Positions 1,515 to 11,691 of a stretch of DNA of 11,778 nt are shown piece after piece. The number at the start of each line of letters is the position of its first letter. Within the stretch, counting starts at the first letter, position 1. The stretch is taken from the NCBI RefSeq assembly GCF_018854495.1, contig NZ_JABBDR010000112.1, forward strand, positions 1 through 11,778. The letters run 5' to 3'. The notes beneath the pieces were generated by a model. That model was given only the letters and a program-made list of their open reading frames with translations, ran no database searches and was not told where the DNA came from. Source of the DNA: Acidithiobacillus ferruginosus. GTDB taxonomy: Bacteria > Pseudomonadota > Gammaproteobacteria > Acidithiobacillales > Acidithiobacillaceae. The translations under genes were made by a program, and so were the position numbers.

Positions 1515-3188
1515 ATGTCTGACAACCGCAGAAGCAAAACCATCACGCAGGGCGTGCAACGCTCGCCCAACCGGGCCCTGCTGCGTGCGGTGGGGTTTGG
1601 TGATCGGGACTTCGACAAACCTATCGTCGGCGTGGCGAATGCGCACAGCAGCATCACCCCTTGCAATATCGGCATCGGCGCGCTTGCCACGCGTGCGGAA
1701 GCGGCACTCAAGGCGGCTGGGGCGATGCCGCAAACCTTTGGCACCATCACCATTTCCGATGGTATTTCGATGGGTACCACCGGCATGAAATATTCGCTGG
1801 TGTCACGCGAAGTGATTGCCGACTCCATTGAAACGGTGTGTCAGGGCCAGAGCATGGACGGCGTGCTCGCCCTCGGCGGCTGCGACAAGAACATGCCGGG
1901 CGCAATGATCGCCATCGCCCGCATGAACATTCCGGCAGTTTTCGTTTATGGCGGCACCATCAAGCCGGGCCACTACCGGGGCCAAGATCTGACCATCATG
2001 AGTGCCTTTGAGGCGGTGGGGCAATACACCGTCCATAAAATTGACGACGAAGAACTGCTGGAAATCGAGCGTCGCGCCTGCCCTGGCGCGGGCTCCTGCG
2101 GCGGCATGTATACCGCCAACACCATGTCTTCCATCTTCGAAGCCATGGGCATGAGCTTGCCGTACTCCTCCACCATGGCGACGGAGGATGCGGAAAAAGC
2201 GGAGAGTGCGGCACAGTCCGCAGAGGTATTGGTAAGCGCCATCCGAAAGCAAATCCTGCCGCGCCAGATATTGACGCGGCAGGCGTTTGAAAACGCCATT
2301 GCGGTGGCCATGGCCGTGGGCGGCTCCACCAACGCGGTATTGCATCTGCTGGCCATTGCGCATGCGGCACAGGTACCACTCACCCTTGATGATTTCGAGG
2401 CCATGCGTGGGCGTGTGCCGGTACTCTGCGACCTGAAACCATCGGGCCGTTACGTCGCTACCGATCTGCATCGCGCGGGCGGCATTCCCCAGGTGATGAA
2501 AATACTGCTCGCCCACGGCGTGTTGCACGGCGATGCGCTGACCATCAGCGGTCAGACGCTTGCAGAAGTTTTGCAGGATGTGCCGAGCGAAGCGCGTACG
2601 GATCAGGAGGTGATACGCTCGTGGAACAATCCCATTTATGCCCAAGGGCACCTTGCCATCCTGAAGGGGAATCTCGCGCCGGAAGGTGCTGTGGCGAAAA
2701 TAACCGGCTTTATAACGCACAAGATTACTGGTCCGGCACGGGTTTTTGAATCCGAGGAGTCGTGCATGGAAGCGGTCCTGGCGCAGAAAATCAAGCCCGG
2801 CGATGTCGTGGTCATCCGCTACGAAGGACCCAAAGGCGGCCCCGGCATGCGCGAAATGTTGTCTCCCACCTCGGCGATCATCGGTGAAGGACTGGGCGAT
2901 TCGGTCGGCCTCATTACCGACGGTCGCTTTTCCGGGGCGACATACGGCATGGTGGTCGGTCATGTCGCGCCGGAAGCTGCAGTGGGGGGCACGATTGCCC
3001 TCGTCATCGAGGGCGACTCGGTGACTATAGATCCCGAACAGCGTTTGCTGCAACTCAATGTGTCTGATGAAGAAATAGAACGCCGCCGCGCCGTCTGGCA
3101 AGCACCCGCACCGCGCCACACGCGCGGTGTATTGGCGAAGTACGCCAAATTGGTTTCCTCGGCCAGTAAGGGGGCCGTAACAGATTGA
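1515..3188 (+). CDS. ilvD: Dihydroxy-acid dehydratase (IlvD)
   Basis: Dehydrates 2,3-dihydroxy-isovalerate and 2,3-dihydroxy-3-methylvalerate to the 2-keto acids, the penultimate step of valine and isoleucine synthesis. The 557-aa product has the family length for the shorter IlvD group. Numbered from the second Met, the three iron-sulfur cysteines are Cys50 (ITPCNIG), Cys123 ([10 protein letters not shown]) and Cys195 ([14 protein letters not shown]). [26 protein letters not shown] and the catalytic-serine motif TDGRFSGAT are all intact. The three-cysteine pattern fits the Fe-S dehydratase family; whether the cluster is 2Fe-2S or 4Fe-4S cannot be decided here. The ATG at 1512 is an alternative start but sits too close to the ribosome site. 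The gene ends 3 bp from the stop codon of the convergent sua5 gene, with no clear terminator between them. Confidence 0.96.
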
Positions 3189-3191
3189 ACG

Positions 3192-4178
3192 TTAGAAACG
3201 AGAGGCTGTATGCGCTGATGCGGCGCGCGTCAGTCGGTCGCTTACGGCCTGCCAGTCGGCGCCGCTGGGTGGTGCCTCGATCAGCAGACCATCGAGCCCT
3301 TGCTGATCCAGAGCGCGCAACTGCGCGTAGAGTTCGCGGGCCCACCCTGTCGGATGCGGCGGCATATGGTGCCGGAGACAGGATTCGGGCAGCTGCGTGG
3401 CGGACATCGCCAGCACTCCGATGCGTTGCCCCTGCCTGAGGCGCCGGCATATTTCCGCTTTCAGATGCCCCGTCGGCACCAAGTAGAGAGGGGTTCTTGG
3501 GGCGTAATGGGAGCGCAGCATCCCCGGTGCCCGTGGCGCATTGTTTTCCGGTGATGCGACGGGCTGCTCCAGGACAGCTTCGATCTCAGCAATCGTAATC
3601 GCGCCTGGACGCAGCAGCCGGGGCTGCTGCCCGCTCAGGTCGAGAATGGTGGACTCAATGCCGACCCGACAAGGTCCGCCATTCAGAAGGATATCCACGG
3701 CATCGCCTAGCTCCTCGCGCACGTGTGCTGCGGTGGTGGGGCTTATCTGGCCAAAAAGGTTGGCCGAAGGAGCAGCGATGCCGCCGCCAAAAACTTCGAG
3801 CAGCGCCAGGGCGAGGGGATGATCGGGAACTCGCAATCCTACCGTATCCTGACCGCCGGTCACCATATCGGGCAAACGGCAGGCGCGGCGCAGGATCACG
3901 GTGAGTGGACCTGGCCAATAACGCTGCGCGAGGCGAAAGGCCGCTGGCGGAATATCCCTGGACCATCGGCCAAGAGGGTCACTATGCGCCATGTGAACGA
4001 TCAGCGGATGGTCGGCTGGCCTGCCCTTTGCCGCAAAAATGCGGGCCACGGCTGCGGGGTTTTCCGCATCGGCCCCGAGGCCGTAGACCGTCTCAGTGGG
4101 GAAGGCGACGAGGCCACCACGGTGCAGGACAGCCGCAGCTTCCTGCACTGTGGCGCGAAATTTCTTACTCGAAGTCAT
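3192..4178 (-). CDS. sua5: L-threonylcarbamoyladenylate synthase, Sua5/TsaC2 type
   Basis: Makes threonylcarbamoyl-AMP from threonine, bicarbonate and ATP, the first step of t6A37 modification of tRNAs that read ANN codons. At 328 aa it is the long two-domain Sua5 form. The YrdC domain (about residues 8-200) carries PTETVYGLG (27-35), KGRPADHPL (51-59) and the later SANLFGQISPT segment. A linker with APGMLRSHYAPRTPLYLV leads into the C-terminal Sua5 domain (about 235-328). The ATG at 4178 is preceded by GGGGAG about ten bases upstream, which lies inside the end of the preceding 64-codon ORF. The gene is the last of the minus-strand run and converges on ilvD. It is a housekeeping function, so its place at the end of a carboxysome operon is notable. 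Confidence 0.92.
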   Translation of the reverse strand: MTSSKKFRATVQEAAAVLHRGGLVAFPTETVYGLGADAENPAAVARIFAAKGRPADHPLIVHMAHSDPLGRWSRDIPPAAFRLAQRYWPGPLTVILRRACRLPDMVTGGQDTVGLRVPDHPLALALLEVFGGGIAAPSANLFGQISPTTAAHVREELGDAVDILLNGGPCRVGIESTILDLSGQQPRLLRPGAITIAEIEAVLEQPVASPENNAPRAPGMLRSHYAPRTPLYLVPTGHLKAEICRRLRQGQRIGVLAMSATQLPESCLRHHMPPHPTGWARELYAQLRALDQQGLDGLLIEAPPSGADWQAVSDRLTRAASAHTASRF

Positions 4179-4181
4179 GGT

Positions 4182-4376
4182 TTAGTTGCTCCCCGCCGCG
4201 GCTGGCAGCGCCGAACGCTGGTCATGAGAGGACCACTCCCACCGCTGCCGGTAGAGTCTCAGCCAGACAGTGTTTCGGCCAATAAAGACTAGATTTGGGT
4301 TGTAGGTGGGCGGGTGTATCTCTTTGTCTTCAGCCAGCGCCCTGTTCACATCACACAGAATGGCCCTCTGATTCAT
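4182..4376 (-). CDS. Possible small protein, 64 aa, between bioD and sua5
   Basis: Unrecognised ORF that fills the gap between bioD and sua5 exactly. Its ATG overlaps the bioD stop as ATGA, and its TAA is three bases from the sua5 ATG. It has no Shine-Dalgarno of its own, so translation would depend on ribosomes finishing bioD. The product has an acidic-to-mixed N-terminal half (NRALAEDKE), then a basic, Trp-rich stretch with three Trp between about residues 40 and 50 (WLRLYRQRWEW), and an Ala-rich tail. There is no signal peptide or known motif. It uses AGG twice plus ATA, CTA and AGA, codons that the neighbouring genes largely avoid. It could be a coupled gene, a transferred or decaying fragment, or an untranslated spacer that is open by chance. 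Confidence 0.33.
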   Translation of the reverse strand: MNQRAILCDVNRALAEDKEIHPPTYNPNLVFIGRNTVWLRLYRQRWEWSSHDQRSALPAAAGSN

Positions 4377-5155
4377 TCATGCGCAGCACAGTTTGCGTTA
4401 GAGTTCGCTTTTGGCGTGGCGTGGGTGGCCGCAAGCCGATTGGCCAAGCCGTGAAGAAACGGACCAATGGCCGTCCACGCGGGTGCCTGGTGCCCCGGCC
4501 GATGCGGCACCCGCTCCACCGGACAGTCCAGCCAGTGCGCCACGTCTGCGACGTTATCCATAAGCAGATCGGTCATCGGCCCCGCTTGATTGAGCACCAC
4601 GCCAACCAGTGGTAATGCCCGGTGCTGTAATACCTCCACAGTGAGCAGGGTGTGGTTGATGACGCCGAGGCGATCGGCGGCTACTACCAGCACCGGCAGC
4701 CGCAGTGCGGCGGCCAAGTCGGCGTTGGTAGTTCCCGCCGCCAGCGGGGAGAGCAGGCCGCCAGCCCCTTCCACCAGCAAGAAGTCGTCTGCGCCAATGC
4801 CCGACTGGCAAGCGGTTACCAGTTGATCCAGATTCAGCGTCCGACCCTCCAGGGCAGCAGCCCGCTCCGGTGAGAACGCCGCCCGCAGTGGATAAGCACA
4901 AACCTGTTGCAGCGATTCGGTACTGCCCGCAGCCTCCCAGAGCGCGACAGCGTCCTGGGGCAGCAGGCCATCCTCGCCCGGGGCACACCCGGATTCCACC
5001 GGTTTGCGCGGGCGCACCAATAGGCCCCGCTGCACCAGGAGACGGGTCAGTGCCGCAGCCACCCAGGTTTTGCCGACGCCCGTGTCAGTACCAGTAACAA
5101 AAAGTCCGGTGAGGCCTGCCATATCCGACTCAACGGCGTATTGAATGCTTTTCAT
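4373..5155 (-). CDS. bioD: Dethiobiotin synthetase (BioD)
   Basis: ATP-dependent carboxylation of 7,8-diaminopelargonic acid with CO2 to form the ureido ring of dethiobiotin, the penultimate step of biotin synthesis. The 260-aa product shows the P-loop GTDTGVGKT (residues 22-30), the KPVESG substrate segment (Lys51), LLVEGAGGLLSPL (Glu129) and the VVLNQ guanine/adenine-proximal strand. The first ATG overlaps the stop of the upstream aldolase-like gene as ATGA, with only a weak GGAAAG before it. This implies translational coupling. An internal Met12 (MAGLTGLFVTGTD) would give the more usual length at the N-terminus and is a possible alternative start. The C-terminal tail (THATPKANSNANCAAHE) is low-complexity and longer than in E. 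coli BioD. No other bio gene is in the window. Confidence 0.94.
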   Translation of the reverse strand: MKSIQYAVESDMAGLTGLFVTGTDTGVGKTWVAAALTRLLVQRGLLVRPRKPVESGCAPGEDGLLPQDAVALWEAAGSTESLQQVCAYPLRAAFSPERAAALEGRTLNLDQLVTACQSGIGADDFLLVEGAGGLLSPLAAGTTNADLAAALRLPVLVVAADRLGVINHTLLTVEVLQHRALPLVGVVLNQAGPMTDLLMDNVADVAHWLDCPVERVPHRPGHQAPAWTAIGPFLHGLANRLAATHATPKANSNANCAAHE

Positions 5156-6333
5156 AAGCTTTCCATGGCGTAGTCGATGCTGATTTCTCTGTCTGCCACG
5201 GGCCGGAAACGCCGGTTGGTGAAGGCTGCATAGTCAGGGTGCCTATGGTAGGAATCAATCACTTCCGGTGCCGCAAAACGCACCTGCCAGCAGTAGCGGT
5301 ATTGAGCGTGTTCTCTCATCGCCTTACCCGTAATCACTGACCGCACTCCCGGAATGGTGCTCAGCGTCTGCTGCCCCTCGATCATCATCGCGGTCACTTC
5401 TTTTTCAGAAATACCAATTACATTATGGATAATCAGGTGTTCCACGGGTGCCCAGGGTCGACAGCATGCCAACACCTCGGCGGCCCTCCCGGCAGCACCC
5501 CACACGCGCATACAGCGTTCGGCCTCGGCACTGATCGCCGCACCAACGCCCTGAACCAAATCCAGGTAGCCAGCACCCGGCGCCGATCTTGCCTGGGCGC
5601 GGATCGCCGCGTTCGCGGCTTCAGCCAAAGCTGTAAAATAGTTGATCTTGGCCACGCCATGGACAATGAGTCGCCGAAATTGGTCATCGTCGATCCGGAC
5701 CCTGCAGTGGATTGCCAGCGGAATACCAAGTGCGCGGTTGATGCTGCGAAGGCGCTGAATATCCAGCTTGGCTTTACTATTTGGACAGATCTGTTCCGCT
5801 CCAATGGACACCTCGAGGAAGTCTACTCCCGTGCGCTCGACAAAGCCTTTCGCCTCGGCCACAGTGGTGTAGGGTAACGTGGCAGGATGCCCTTGGGCGT
5901 TTATATCCGTTGCATCCGGGATGTAACCCAAATCTCCTTCGACAGGCACACCGCAGGCGTGGGCCATCTCGACTACGGTCTTTGTATGCGCCAGGTTATC
6001 GGAGAAAGTCGACTGGGAGGCGTCCACCATCACGCCGTTGCAGCCCAGGCGGATGGCCCGCACCGCCGCCTCCAGGTTCGCTCCACGGTCAAGATGAAGG
6101 GCCACCGGTACCGAACTACGGCGAGCCGCTGCCTCCACCCCTGACATCAGCAGTTCGAAGGCGTAGTGCTCCAGTTGCGACTCGGCCAGAGAAAGGATTA
6201 CGGGTGCGCGAGACCGCTCGGCAGCGGCCATGACGCCCTCAACGAACTCCAGACTCACGACGTCGAAAGCACCTACCGCGTATCCATGCGCATAGGCATG
6301 GTTCAGCAGATCTTTCATGTGCACCAAAGACAT
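5152..6333 (-). CDS. Class II aldolase-like protein with altered metal site, fused to a C-terminal Dabb domain
   Basis: Residues 1-290 follow the class II fructose/tagatose-bisphosphate aldolase fold closely: start MSLVHMKDLL, AYAVGAFDV-type first strand, VPVALHLD (75-82), NGVMVDAS (99-106), PVEGDLGYIPD, and KINYFTA (229-235). The active site is not standard. The zinc histidine after HLD is Arg83. The GTAHG motif reads GAEQI, so the second zinc histidine is Gln181. The third, His209, remains, but the following GGSG phosphate loop is CRVR, and the usual ELG acidic residue is Asp134. Residues about 296-393 look like a Dabb (stress-responsive A/B barrel) domain: VEHLIIHNV, IPGVRSV, SYHRHPDYAAF and a final IDYAM strand. 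Start: GGGGGA stands seven bases before the ATG. Annotation pipelines would call it fba or cbbA, but aldolase activity is doubtful. It overlaps bioD by four bases. Confidence 0.85.
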   Translation of the reverse strand: MSLVHMKDLLNHAYAHGYAVGAFDVVSLEFVEGVMAAAERSRAPVILSLAESQLEHYAFELLMSGVEAAARRSSVPVALHLDRGANLEAAVRAIRLGCNGVMVDASQSTFSDNLAHTKTVVEMAHACGVPVEGDLGYIPDATDINAQGHPATLPYTTVAEAKGFVERTGVDFLEVSIGAEQICPNSKAKLDIQRLRSINRALGIPLAIHCRVRIDDDQFRRLIVHGVAKINYFTALAEAANAAIRAQARSAPGAGYLDLVQGVGAAISAEAERCMRVWGAAGRAAEVLACCRPWAPVEHLIIHNVIGISEKEVTAMMIEGQQTLSTIPGVRSVITGKAMREHAQYRYCWQVRFAAPEVIDSYHRHPDYAAFTNRRFRPVADREISIDYAMESL

Positions 6334-8825: not shown

Positions 8826-9629
8826 TCAGAAAAATGTACCCACCGCCGCGTCAAGCGCATCGCGCATGTCGGGGTCATCGGTGATCGGGCGCACCAACGT
8901 CACGCGGCACGCCGCCAGGGGTTCCACACCTTTTGTAATGAGGCTGCCGGCGTAGATCAGCATGCGCGTGGAGATACCCTCGTCGAGTCCATGTCCCTTG
9001 AGGTTGCGCGCGCGTTCGGCGATGGACACCAGCTTGCCGGCAATTTCAGCGCTGACGCCGGTTTCGTGGGCGACGATCTCGGTTTCTATGTCGTGTGCGG
9101 GATAGTTGAAATCCAGTGCACCGAAACGCTGTTTGGTAGACTGTTTCAGGTCTTTCATCAGACTCTGATAGCCCGGGTTGTAGGAAATCACCATCTGGAA
9201 ATCGGGATGGGCCTGCACCAGTTCGCCCTTCTTCTCCAGCGGCAGCACACGCCGCGCGTCGGTGAGCGGGTGGATCACCACTGTGGTGTCCTGGCGGGCT
9301 TCCACCACTTCGTCGAGATAGCAGATGGCCCCAAAACGCGCGGCAATGGCCAGCGGGCCGTCCTGCCAGCGGGTGCCGGAAGCGTCGAGCAAGAAACGGC
9401 CGATCAGGTCGGATGCCGTCATATCTTCGTTACACGCCACAGTGATCAGTGGCTTACCCAGTTTCCACGCCATGTATTCAATAAAGCGCGTCTTCCCGCA
9501 GCCAGTGGGTCCTTTCAGCATCATCGGCATGCGTACCGAATAGGCGGCTTCGTACAGGTCGACTTCGTCGGCTACGGTGCGGTAATAAGGCATATTACGA
9601 ACGAGATATTGATCAATTTCCGGTGACAT
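8826..9629 (-). CDS. cbbQ: CbbQ, MoxR-type AAA+ ATPase of the Rubisco activase
   Basis: CbbQ forms a hexameric AAA+ ring that, with CbbO, reactivates Rubisco. The 267-aa protein has Walker A GPTGCGKT (residues 40-47, Lys46), Walker B ICYLDE (Asp106, Glu107), a sensor-1 region around SYNPGYQ, and the arginine-bearing [14 protein letters not shown] segment typical of CbbQ/NorQ proteins. The NorQ alternative is ruled out in practice by the cbbO neighbour and the carboxysome context. AGGAG is placed seven bases upstream of the ATG. The gap to mcdB is 30 bp and to cbbO 15 bp. In several autotrophs the CbbQ of this locus associates with the carboxysome shell; that is family knowledge, not visible here. 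Confidence 0.96.
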
Positions 9630-9659: not shown

Positions 9660-9914
9660 TTAATCAGGCCAAACCCGACGCGGGTGCAGCCTCTGGTGAT
9701 GTTCTGAGCGAGGTGCAGAGGGCCGTTTTTCCTCAGTTGAGTTCGATAATGGCGGAGGCCTCTCGCCCGGACGGACCGTGCTCAGGGCATTCGGTTGGGC
9801 GTCTGGTGCCGCAGCAGCACACGCGTCTACTATCGGTGCCGACTCTTCGACTTGCTGCGCTTGAACCTGGCGTACCCCTTGCGCCAGTTTGGATCCCAAT
9901 TTCTTCACAGGCAT
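9660..9914 (-). CDS. mcdB: McdB-like carboxysome positioning adaptor
   Basis: McdB links the carboxysome to the McdA ATPase, stimulating its release from the nucleoid so that carboxysomes spread evenly. I assign this from three things: position immediately after and overlapping the ParA-type mcdA gene by 10 bp; small size (84 aa); and composition. The N-terminus is basic and amphipathic (MPVKKLGSKLAQGVRQVQ), followed by a Gln-rich stretch, an Ala/Pro-rich middle (ACAAAAPDAQP) and a disordered Pro/Arg/Ser tail. The tail ends HPRRVWPD, with a single Trp (Trp82) near the very C-terminus. A conserved C-terminal Trp is a recognised feature of proteobacterial alpha-type McdB. Sequence similarity in this family is low, so the call rests mainly on context. 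The other frame open here (to 9927) is a shadow without these features. Confidence 0.78.
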   Translation of the reverse strand: MPVKKLGSKLAQGVRQVQAQQVEESAPIVDACAAAAPDAQPNALSTVRPGERPPPLSNSTEEKRPSAPRSEHHQRLHPRRVWPD

Positions 9915-10540
9915 AAGACCTCCTCAATGATCGCTTCCATATCCGCTACGGCTGTTTGGGCGCGCTTGCCCAGTCCGTAGACGCTTACCCCTTCGACCGC
10001 AGCGCTGCGGTAAGCCGCACGCCGCTGCATGCCGGCCTGCAATATCGGTACGTCGAACTCCGCCAGGGCCTCGCGCATGGCGCGGGACAGGGCATTACGC
10101 GATTCCAGTTGATTCAGCACCAGTCCTGCGCGCAAGCCTGGATTCAACCGCCGGGACTCGCCTACCGCCGCTGCCATCCCCACGCTGGCCCACAGATCAA
10201 TCGGGGAGGGCAACACCGGAATTAATATCACCTGAACCGAGCGCATCACCGCTGCGACCACGTCACCCTGAATGGCAGGCGGGCAGTCCACTACCACGTA
10301 GCGGTAGGTGCATGCCAGTTGCGTAATGGTAGCGAAGGGATCACGACCAGCCTGCGCCACCGGCGGCAGTCCGGCGTTACCATCTGCCATGGCGACCCAC
10401 TGACTGATTGAACCCTGAGGATCGGCATCTACCAGGTGAGTAGAACCCCGCCGAGCCAAGCCCGCCGCGAGATTCAACGCCAGGGTAGTCTTGCCGGTAC
10501 CGCCCTTTTGGTTGACTACCGCGATGATGCTGTCCGCCAT
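9905..10540 (-). CDS. mcdA: McdA, ParA-family carboxysome positioning ATPase
   Basis: A small ParA/MinD-type ATPase that binds nucleoid DNA when ATP-bound and positions carboxysomes with McdB. The 211-aa protein has the deviant Walker A KGGTGKTT (residues 12-19) with the signature Lys12 and catalytic Lys17, Walker A' LVDADPQGS (Asp38, Asp40) and Walker B YVVVDCPP (Asp85). It lacks the N-terminal helix-turn-helix of plasmid ParA proteins, and there is no parB or parS-like gene nearby. This argues against a chromosome or plasmid segregation role. AGGGG stands five bases before the ATG. The 3' end overlaps mcdB by 10 bp, so the pair is probably translationally coupled. The generic symbol parA is often used. 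Confidence 0.9.
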   Translation of the reverse strand: MADSIIAVVNQKGGTGKTTLALNLAAGLARRGSTHLVDADPQGSISQWVAMADGNAGLPPVAQAGRDPFATITQLACTYRYVVVDCPPAIQGDVVAAVMRSVQVILIPVLPSPIDLWASVGMAAAVGESRRLNPGLRAGLVLNQLESRNALSRAMREALAEFDVPILQAGMQRRAAYRSAAVEGVSVYGLGKRAQTAVADMEAIIEEVLCL

Positions 10541-10576: not shown

Positions 10577-10855
10577 TTAGGTTCTTTCCGTAACGGCCAG
10601 CGCTTCCATCTCGCCAGTGAAGCTGGAGTTGCGCTCGGCCAGCTCAGCCCGACCTTCGGTATCAATACTGATGTTGACGTAGGTTTTGCCGAAGCTCACA
10701 TTCGGAAAGTAGCCCTCGCGTTTGGAAAGATCAGCCATTTGATCCAGAAAATGGCGTGTCTGAACGTAACTTCCAAACTCAAATCGCCAGTTCAGCGTGG
10801 GCAGACGTTCCTGTGGTCCTGATGAGGCCGCATTCAGATCCTTTACAGCGTTCAT
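10577..10855 (-). CDS. acRAF: acRAF, PCD-like alpha-carboxysome Rubisco assembly factor
   Basis: A 92-aa protein with the pterin-4a-carbinolamine dehydratase fold, placed at the conserved acRAF position between the bacterioferritin-like gene and mcdA. Characterised homologues help form I Rubisco fold or assemble and lack dehydratase activity. Consistent with this, the HHP catalytic motif of true dehydratases is replaced by YFPN (residues 49-52), followed by the family-like VSFGKTYVNISI strand. The first 17 residues are a flexible, Ser/Ala-rich lead. Translation start is well supported: AAGGAG lies seven bases before the ATG, and the bacterioferritin-like stop is 11 bp upstream. The gap to mcdA is 36 bp. 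Confidence 0.85.
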   Translation of the reverse strand: MNAVKDLNAASSGPQERLPTLNWRFEFGSYVQTRHFLDQMADLSKREGYFPNVSFGKTYVNISIDTEGRAELAERNSSFTGEMEALAVTERT

Positions 10856-10866
10856 GATGTTGCTCC

Positions 10867-11295
10867 TTAATGCATCTCGATCAACAGGTGATCCAGGTCG
10901 CGCAAGTGACCCAATTCCTCTTGCAGGAGGCCGGCGAACAGGGCTTGTAACTCTTCTGCGCGCATGCGGGCGCAGTAGTGGGCCGCTTCTTCGTACAGGC
11001 GGATCACGTCGATCTCCAGCCCGCGATCGATCAGTAGCATCTCCTCCAGGGATCGACCCGGACGAATGGGCGGCAGTTGCGTGCCATTGGAAGCAATACC
11101 CAATATCAACATGCGTTCAATCAACTGCTGTGCATGTCCGAGCTCTTCTTCCGCATCACGGCGGAAACGGCTACTGTATTCCTTCAACTGCCACATCGCG
11201 GTCAGGCTGGCCTGGGTGAGATACTGTTGCACGGCGGCTATCTCGGCACTGAGTGCGCGCATCAGGTAGCCCGTCATTCGCGGATCGTTCGCCAT
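10867..11295 (-). CDS. Bacterioferritin-like diiron protein of the carboxysome operon, lacking haem Met
   Basis: A four-helix ferritin-like protein. With the start at 11295 (MANDPRM) it is 142 aa, and the six ferroxidase ligands fall at the exact numbers of E. coli bacterioferritin: Glu18, Glu51, His54, Glu94, Glu127 and His130 (the EELGH motif appears twice, residues 50-54 and 126-130). This agreement is why I prefer it to the longer frame beginning at 11358, which would overlap csoS1 by 50 bases. The haem-ligating Met52 is Leu here, so inter-subunit haem is not expected. The C-terminus is about 16 residues shorter than in E. coli Bfr. The ribosome site is weak; a GTG two codons earlier is a possible start. 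Bfr-like genes are common in this operon position, but their carboxysome role is unsettled. The symbol bfr would be a loose fit. Confidence 0.88.
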   Translation of the reverse strand: MANDPRMTGYLMRALSAEIAAVQQYLTQASLTAMWQLKEYSSRFRRDAEEELGHAQQLIERMLILGIASNGTQLPPIRPGRSLEEMLLIDRGLEIDVIRLYEEAAHYCARMRAEELQALFAGLLQEELGHLRDLDHLLIEMH

Positions 11296-11308
11296 GGCCA
11301 CGCCGACG

Positions 11309-11647
11309 CTAGCTGAGTGACTGGCTGACCACGCCATCCAGCCCGCTGTCACCGGCATCGGGCGTCTTCGGTAGTATGTTTTCTACCTCTGAGTGCACGC
11401 GGGCGATGATGTGGGCGGCTACCAGTCCGTCGCCGACACGCTCACACGCATCCGCCCCGGCCCGCACCGCAGCATTCACCGCACCGGTCTCACCTCGCAC
11501 CAGCACGGTGACATAGCCGCCGCCCACGAACTGGCGGCCCACCAGGCGCACTTCCGCCGCCTTGGTCATCGCGTCTGCCGCCTCAATCGCCGGCACCAGG
11601 CCGCGTGTCTCGATCATACCCAGTGCCACTCCGCTGACGTTTGCCAT
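11309..11647 (-). CDS. csoS1B: CsoS1 carboxysome shell hexamer protein (CsoS1B-like, with C-terminal extension)
   Basis: A single-BMC-domain protein that assembles as hexamers to form the facets of the alpha-carboxysome shell; its pore is thought to pass bicarbonate and RuBP. Residues 1-98 match the CsoS1 family nearly word for word ([50 protein letters not shown]), including the FVGGG pore loop. About 14 further residues ([14 protein letters not shown]) extend beyond the usual CsoS1A/C end. CsoS1B of Halothiobacillus also has a short C-terminal extension and is also the last csoS1 copy, so I call it csoS1B. I start at 11647 because GGAG is eight bases upstream. The Met two codons earlier is only two bases from it, and the frame open to 11686 adds non-family residues. 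The gap to the bacterioferritin-like gene is 13 bp. Confidence 0.94.
11393..11437. repeat. Direct repeat, copy in csoS1B
   Basis: This 45-bp block matches 11734-11778 with three mismatches, including 27 identical bases at its left end. It encodes the conserved C-terminal helix of the BMC domain in two neighbouring csoS1 copies. It reflects paralogy, and the run of identical third positions suggests recent duplication or gene conversion. Confidence 0.8.
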
Positions 11648-11691
11648 TTTCATCACTCCATGTTCCTGTTCGGTTGATCCGTTCAAACCAT

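Follow-up and report, generated by a model that had tools for sequence, protein, structure and literature searches.

The DNA analysed here (the window) is an 11,778-nucleotide stretch of Acidithiobacillus ferruginosus that makes up one whole contig (NZ_JABBDR010000112.1; G000:C16), and its minus strand carries the end of an alpha-carboxysome operon. The gene under study, here called FbaDabb, encodes a class II aldolase barrel with a C-terminal Dabb domain, in which two of the three zinc-binding histidines and the phosphate-binding loop have been replaced. Comparison with related fusions indicates that such losses have recurred and are over-represented in carboxysome loci, and we lean slightly towards the view that FbaDabb is a pseudo-aldolase, in which the aldol reaction would have been lost while a non-catalytic function connected with Rubisco or its activase would remain.

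Results

Active-site replacements in FbaDabb

The gene, its domains and the replaced positions are as follows.

5152..6333, minus strand: FbaDabb (cbbA in the published cbb1 operon), aldolase barrel plus Dabb, 393 amino acids, ATG to TGA
5485..6324, minus strand: F_bP_aldolase (PF01116) barrel, residues 4-283, 226.4 bits
5170..5409, minus strand: Dabb domain (PF07876), residues 309-388, 34.4 bits (cut-off 25); PDB sequence match 3bde_A
6085..6087, minus strand: Arg83 for the first zinc His (HLDRG, starting at residue 80), from the codon and the homologue alignment
5932..5934, minus strand: Asp134 for the Glu of EGELG (DLG), from the homologue alignment
5791..5793, minus strand: Gln181 for the second zinc His (GAEQI, starting at residue 178; GTVHG in homologues), from the codon and the alignment
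5695..5709, minus strand: His209 kept, followed by C210-R211-V212-R213 (HCRVR versus HGGTG), from the homologue alignment

The C-terminal part of the protein passes the curated cut-off of PF07876 and thus belongs to the Dabb family, and residues 1-286 share their barrel with KbaY/GatY, fructose-bisphosphate aldolase (FBA) and SqiA, members of PF01116, the PDB sequence matches including KbaY, SqiA and FBA structures (26-33% identity in the 50 listed structure matches). An AlphaFold model built from 45 aligned sequences (mean predicted local distance difference test score (pLDDT) 86.4, predicted template modelling score 0.87) has a class II barrel fold (TMt 0.90 to 8q59), nearly all of the 50 PDB matches listed for it being titled class II aldolases; pLDDT falls below 50 at residues 138-153 and 180-185. 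A sequence-only reading of this DNA had described a kept class II aldolase frame with HLDRG, GAEQI, CRVR after His209 and DLG, and all of these are present where it had placed them, in a frame that PF01116 recognises at 226 bits. Set against the consensus of the 120 best homologues (HLDHG, GELG, GTVHG and HGGTG), His209 is the sole survivor of the zinc histidines H83, H181 and H209, and the Gly-rich phosphate loop that should follow it reads HCRVR, while the catalytic Asp82 is kept. Compared with KbaY/GatY, FBA and SqiA, the window protein thus has H83R, H181Q, E134D, HCRVR for HGGTG and an extra Dabb domain.

From these replacements, the window protein is very probably not a working zinc aldolase. 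That it would nevertheless act as the ordinary Calvin-cycle aldolase of its annotation (EC 4.1.2.13) is hardly credible: the fold and several substrate-binding residues are kept, but two zinc ligands and the phosphate loop are replaced, its score against TIGR00167, the NCBIfam cbbA subfamily model, is 173.4 bits (cut-off 215.6), and its genome holds a canonical paralogue. Three of four intact fusions pass the TIGR00167 cut-off (L048 243.7, L065 243.9 and L025 222.9 bits) and L026 just misses it (213.5); the NCBIfam equivalog cut-offs do not discriminate, because intact fusions also fall below them. The paralogue, a second canonical aldolase of the kind that the sequence-only reading had proposed to look for, is a class II aldolase at G000:C309 (317 bits) with all four catalytic residues intact, and it passes the NCBIfam FruBisAldo_II_B and cbbA cut-offs. 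By eye, from the beginnings of the open reading frames (ORFs), its neighbours resemble the published cbb3 operon.

The end of a cbb1-type operon

In the direction of transcription the gene order is csoS1, a bacterioferritin-like gene, an acRAF-like ORF, a ParA-type ATPase gene, a small unnamed ORF, cbbQ, cbbO, FbaDabb and bioD. FbaDabb lies within the cso locus, as expected of a candidate alpha-carboxysome accessory protein. Its neighbours are listed below.

11309..11686, minus strand: CsoS1 carboxysome shell protein at the contig end, NF053791, 186 bits (cut-off 166)
10867..11358, minus strand: bacterioferritin-like protein, profile match
10577..10855, minus strand: acRAF-like ORF, no Pfam match, named by position and the published operon table
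9905..10540, minus strand: ParA-type ATPase (mcdA-like), NF041546 above cut-off
8826..9629, minus strand: cbbQ (AAA+ Rubisco activase), CbbQ_C, 116 bits
6459..8810, minus strand: cbbO (VWA-domain protein), directly upstream of FbaDabb, named after the published operon
4373..5155, minus strand: bioD, next downstream of FbaDabb, TIGR00347, 143 bits (cut-off 83)

The cbb1 operon of Acidithiobacillus ferrooxidans ends with genes in this same order; FbaDabb occupies the place of its last gene, cbbA (ACK80290.1 / AFE_1676), with which it also shares both Pfam domains. According to the sections consulted, that operon including cbbA forms a single transcription unit by reverse transcription PCR (PMC2942843), and cbbA is annotated as a fructose-bisphosphate aldolase with Pfam01116 and Pfam07876 (PMC2942843; also PMC6458275), those sections making no mention of the loss of the zinc site. 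The misannotation as an aldolase that the sequence-only reading had foreseen is therefore already in print, as cbbA / EC 4.1.2.13. The published primer for cbbA is identical to L106 and has a single mismatch to the window; the L106 protein likewise has R83 and Q181. The stop codon of FbaDabb overlaps the start of bioD (ATGA, window 5152-5155), and given this overlap translation of the biotin gene may be coupled to that of the carboxysome operon.

Stepwise replacement under purifying selection

Fourteen relatives that are 89-96% identical to the window protein (P0002-P0015) have Q181 in 13 cases (Pro in P0012), R83 in 13 (His in P0014) and an altered loop in all 14. A. ferrianus (L024) and P0014 combine H83 with Q181 and the altered loop, and the rest of the window clade also has R83, except the fragment P0024, from which the region is absent. 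At the same operon position, A. sulfuriphilus (L025) and a Ferrovum metagenome-assembled genome (L026) keep D82, H83, H181 and H209. L024 and P0014 suggest that the second zinc His and the phosphate loop would have been replaced first and His83 later. Sequencing error and changes unique to the window sequence, which the sequence-only reading had named as possible refutations, are both excluded, since the same replacements occur in related clusters and genomes.

Among six clade members, the ratio of nonsynonymous to synonymous substitution rates (dN/dS) ranged over 0.105-0.164 in 14 pairs; the 15th pair, L104 and L106, is nearly identical, and the pairs are thus non-independent. For the barrel alone the range was 0.103-0.181 and for Dabb alone 0.079-0.349. 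Thirteen comparison pairs gave 0.045-0.196, two of them (window-L025 and L070-L073) involving degenerate copies, and eight pairs within degenerate groups gave 0.085-0.281; the very divergent L202-L210 pair reached 0.51. The window clade protein is under purifying selection, and the combination of lost catalytic residues, conserved fold and purifying selection is that of a pseudoenzyme. The claim of the sequence-only reading that the changes are no random error holds for the same reasons, as they are common to the clade, concentrated at the active site (see below) and located in a gene under selection.

Other residues are also fixed in the clade, and two further interpretations draw on them. 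E180, C183, H209 and C210 each occur in 15/15 of P0001-P0015, and among the relatives P0016-P0025 minus P0024 (n=9) position 180 is Val in nine and position 183 is Arg in eight, a pattern that would fit an active enzyme with a different chemistry and a metal site rebuilt from Glu180, Cys183, His209 and Cys210. This is unlikely: within-clade dN is just 0.037-0.080 (14 pairs), and with so little divergence fixation is weak evidence for a rebuilt site, while the loop of the putative site is modelled at low confidence. R83, R211 and R213 are each found in 14/15 of P0001-P0015, and the old active site with these three arginines might still bind a sugar phosphate, for example ribulose bisphosphate (RuBP), xylulose bisphosphate (XuBP) or fructose bisphosphate (FBP), and report it to CbbQO or CbbR; the protein would then be a ligand sensor without catalysis. 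Among the PDB titles is an H180Q aldolase of Helicobacter pylori with FBP and with dihydroxyacetone phosphate, so that His-to-Gln there need not abolish binding, and a LysR gene lies within 2 kb of the fusion gene in 24/135 rows of the family tree described below. However, the set of three Arg is not common to the other degenerate lineages, for which reason a sensor would be peculiar to this clade; residues 180-185 of the loop have pLDDT <50 and no LysR gene adjoins FbaDabb in the window operon. We regard a sensor as doubtful.

The family of barrel-Dabb fusions

A homologue search returned 2224 proteins at E <=0.001 among 7996 scored candidates, and the best 120 were examined. Both Pfam domains are present in 119 of these (P0046 has the barrel only), and all three zinc His are kept in 102, the exceptions being P0001-P0015, P0017, P0018 and the fragment P0024. 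Intact fusions such as L048 and L025 have the same architecture as the window protein, many likewise standing after cbbO or cbbX, but unlike it they retain the zinc site and the phosphate loop. In a class sample, 53 of 369 genomes matched at E <=1e-60, and in a phylum-level search 11 of 398 at E <=1e-50 (6 in one family, barrel part only). Repeating the class search with an alignment model added 13 genomes beyond the 53. Five of them carry CsoSCA (G065, G118, G150 and G234 were used, G291 was left out); the eight others comprise G298 (L218), counted as unlinked degenerate, G188, a fragment, G124 (L220), left out, and G089, G218, G286, G342 and G381, barrel-part matches that were left out of the analysis. 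CsoSCA is encoded in 68 of the 369 class genomes, and 22 of those 68 have the fusion (window genome included, G291 excluded). In some cases the fusion lies on another contig or far from CsoSCA; five of these copies (L144, L160, L161, L164, L168) are intact, two (L145, L174) carry Q181, one (L184) is degenerate and one (L190) is incomplete. Within the genus, CsoSCA occurs in 13/17 genomes and the full-length fusion in 6, with the barrel only in G007 and fragments in G012.

Neighbourhoods were mapped by tblastn with reference proteins. Looking up to 4.7 kb upstream on the same strand, an activase gene is present in 59/135 tree rows (cbbO 42, cbbX 15, cbbQ 2), so that the activase-adjacent position, though frequent, is not general; in 70/135 the fetched stretch contains a match to Rubisco or activase. 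Altered and intact copies coexist in G031 (L110, L109), G151 (L173, L159) and G096 (L175, L152), and likewise in G340 (L169 and the partial L185/L191) and in Thiogranum (L030, in which only H80 is changed, and L041).

Several loci have additional features. In several Acidithiobacillus genomes (L023, L024/L197, L051/L112), dabB- and dabA-like matches and cbbO-like fragments lie just downstream of FbaDabb (dabB only in L023), and in L051/L112 a second 3' FbaDabb fragment follows 7.5 kb further, as if a duplication flanked an insertion; this arrangement is not found in the window. In L195, L196 and L200 a very degenerate FbaDabb stands after SulP-, SbtA- and PII-like SbtB genes within carboxysome loci. 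A 204-amino-acid ORF with a bacterial microcompartment (BMC) domain lies near FbaDabb in L170 (9244-9858), with matches in L181, L040, L030, L149, L183 and L187, and is possibly a CsoS1D-type shell protein. The degenerate copy L218 (G298; 2814-3897), on a short contig, stands beside a LysR gene, followed by an ORF that by eye resembles a beta-carbonic anhydrase.

Recurrent loss and its link to carboxysome loci

Copies were scored as degenerate on any change at D82, H83, H181 or H209, as linked when the fetched stretch had matches to at least two of csoS2, csoSCA, csoS4A, csoS1, bfr, acRAF and mcdA, and as unlinked when it had no carboxysome match; this stretch usually extends up to about 10 kb to either side, so that linkage over longer distances may go unnoticed. 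Proteins below 290 amino acids were left out of the tree, two canonical outgroups stand outside the linkage table, L190 was unscored, and 17 of the 137 rows (less than 9 kb of DNA and no carboxysome match), including the degenerate L110 and L188, belong to neither linkage class. Because the L070 contig starts 0.9 kb upstream, this row was placed among the unlinked ones; its sister L073 is linked.

Degenerate copies make up 19/25 of the linked rows and 14/93 of the unlinked rows, leaving 79 unlinked intact rows; 7 of the 14 unlinked degenerate rows belong to one Q181 clade. Fisher's test, in which kinship is ignored, gave p 1.4e-8. In a likelihood-ratio test run with our own script, which took losses as irreversible and the root as intact and unlinked, a linkage-dependent loss rate fitted better (likelihood ratio 11.7; p 6.3e-4 for real branch lengths), the rate being about 15-fold higher if linked. 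The tree is a 'quick' tree with long branches at L202, L203, L107, L193 and others; with other lengths p was 4.3e-4 (capped), 1.8e-4 (square-root) and 4.2e-5 (unit), and after removal of eight rows (the seven-row L195-L203/L210 group and L107) it was 0.0058 (real), 0.011 (capped) and 0.00096 (unit). Unordered parsimony requires a minimum of 9 state changes. Reading site by site and assuming no regain, we infer that about 14 losses occurred separately; 7 fall within carboxysome loci, namely in the window clade, L107, L040, L073/L070, L076, L208/L209 and the L195-L203/L210 group.

In the separate Q181 clade (L145, L158, L169, L174-L177, and L188), His181 was independently changed to Gln (Arg in L188). 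The clade stands mostly in non-carboxysome cbbLSQO operons and also shows Glu132 to Val and His80 to Gln.

Losses concentrate at the active site

Taking as invariant the positions conserved in at least 97% of the 99 intact rows, the 11 active-site positions other than the class-defining four had a mean of 5.2 loss events, versus 1.7 at the 49 others (p 1.4e-5). With the class-defining positions counted, active-site enrichment reached p <0.05 in 9 of 13 single events, the others being L073 (0.68), L089 (0.14), L212 (0.07) and the Q181 clade (0.052). Residues that do not vary across a 27-row alignment include H12, A13, Y18, A19, P76, G97 and G226 and, in the linker, G279, R283, A284, C291 and W294.

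A decaying gene, kept only through its operon position and heading for loss, could be read from the strong erosion of some related lineages, such as L107, another Acidithiobacillus, which has lost three of the four catalytic residues and its Dabb match, and from the dN/dS of L202 versus L210. In the window clade, however, the low dN/dS disfavours a dying gene, open full-length frames persist in six genus genomes, and the losses in those nine events fall preferentially at the active site. Decay is therefore very unlikely.

Discussion

The reading that we slightly favour is that of a pseudo-aldolase. The ancestor would have been a zinc-site class II aldolase fused to Dabb that often accompanied Rubisco operons, downstream of the activase. 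In a carboxysome context its catalytic job would become dispensable, which would explain the repeated losses there; the second zinc His, the phosphate loop and then His83 would have been replaced, and the aldol reaction thereby lost, while the frame was kept under purifying selection. A second, non-catalytic job would be left. That this job is that of a structural or regulatory partner of Rubisco or activase we propose tentatively, at somewhat less than even odds in our judgement; the protein might conceivably be a scaffold or a folded partner of CbbQO, of Rubisco or of the carboxysome, perhaps still binding a sugar phosphate. The sequence-only reading, which had proposed a repurposed protein, was right about non-random change; the Dabb domain, the intact majority among close homologues and the recurrence in other carboxysome loci had escaped it.

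Several observations weigh against the pseudo-aldolase reading. Asp82, His209, Asn231 and Thr234, which the window protein shares with KbaY/GatY, FBA and SqiA, are still in place, and given these residues a weak or altered catalysis is possible. Six of the 25 linked copies (L025, L026, L030, L205, L206 and L207) keep D82, H83, H181 and H209, and a single Acidithiobacillus clade, that of the window, accounts for 6 of the 19 linked degenerate rows. An independent-pairs test with 5 pairs on well-supported branches gave no significance; over 200 random pairings, 1.5 of the 5 pairs on average agreed with the association, 0.1 went against it and 3.4 showed no difference. No Rubisco, activase, carboxysome, Dab, Sbt or adjacent LysR match was found in 46/135 rows. 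Six genus genomes with CsoSCA have no FbaDabb match, so that FbaDabb is neither essential to carboxysomes nor a universal part of them. Among eight other degenerate copies scanned, only L040, L076 and L184 pass the Dabb cut-off (L176 scores below it, and Dabb has no match in L107, L195, L194 and L181); as Dabb is not constant among degenerate copies, a role resting on this domain alone is unlikely to be common to all. Finally, according to the part of PMC8718961 consulted, the carboxysomal CbbQO of A. ferrooxidans reactivates Rubisco in vitro without FbaDabb, an activity greatly enhanced by polyethylene glycol; FbaDabb is thus not strictly needed but could matter under cell conditions.

As to the intact parent, an FBP-cleaving enzyme is to be considered alongside cleavage of XuBP. 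In the latter case the intact fusions would repair Rubisco damage by cleaving xylulose-1,5-bisphosphate (XuBP), an inhibitor that arises from misfires of Rubisco and is set free by the activase, to dihydroxyacetone phosphate and glycolaldehyde phosphate, and would thus be the aldolase equivalent of the phosphatase CbbY, with a function that would become dispensable once Rubisco was packed in alpha-carboxysomes, the protein then turning repeatedly into a non-catalytic activase or carboxysome partner. The synteny with cbbO, cbbX or cbbQ, the recurrent loss in carboxysome loci and the aldol route to XuBP, an enzymatic addition used to make it in vitro (PMC10212915, in the part consulted), prompted this scenario; as a whole we hold it to be rather improbable, and XuBP as the substrate is a guess. 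The open-licence literature yielded nothing on such an enzyme in searches for XuBP with aldolase. CbbY, a XuBP phosphatase and accessory protein of cbb operons (same source and part), offers a possible analogy only, as it is a HAD-family phosphatase and the window protein an aldolase barrel.

Apart from the two A. ferrooxidans papers, we found nothing in the open-licence literature on a pseudo-aldolase, a Dabb fusion or an aldolase in carboxysome loci, nor an assay of a homologue. The degenerate family is not mentioned in the consulted parts of a 2026 review of alpha-carboxysome proteins (PMC12918739), a taxonomy of BMC loci (PMC4207490), a survey of atypical carboxysome loci (PMC9164163) and a survey of Calvin-cycle genes (PMC7895386).

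Under the pseudo-aldolase reading, a gene transcribed together with those of the alpha-carboxysome in a model acidophile probably does not provide the Calvin-cycle reaction under which it is filed, and pathway maps that include it are likely to be in error. The same active site has been lost repeatedly, with a rate that one tree-based estimate puts about 15 times higher in carboxysome loci. This pattern points to an accessory protein that has been overlooked, and raises the question of what the encapsulation of Rubisco makes unnecessary and what job the surviving protein performs.

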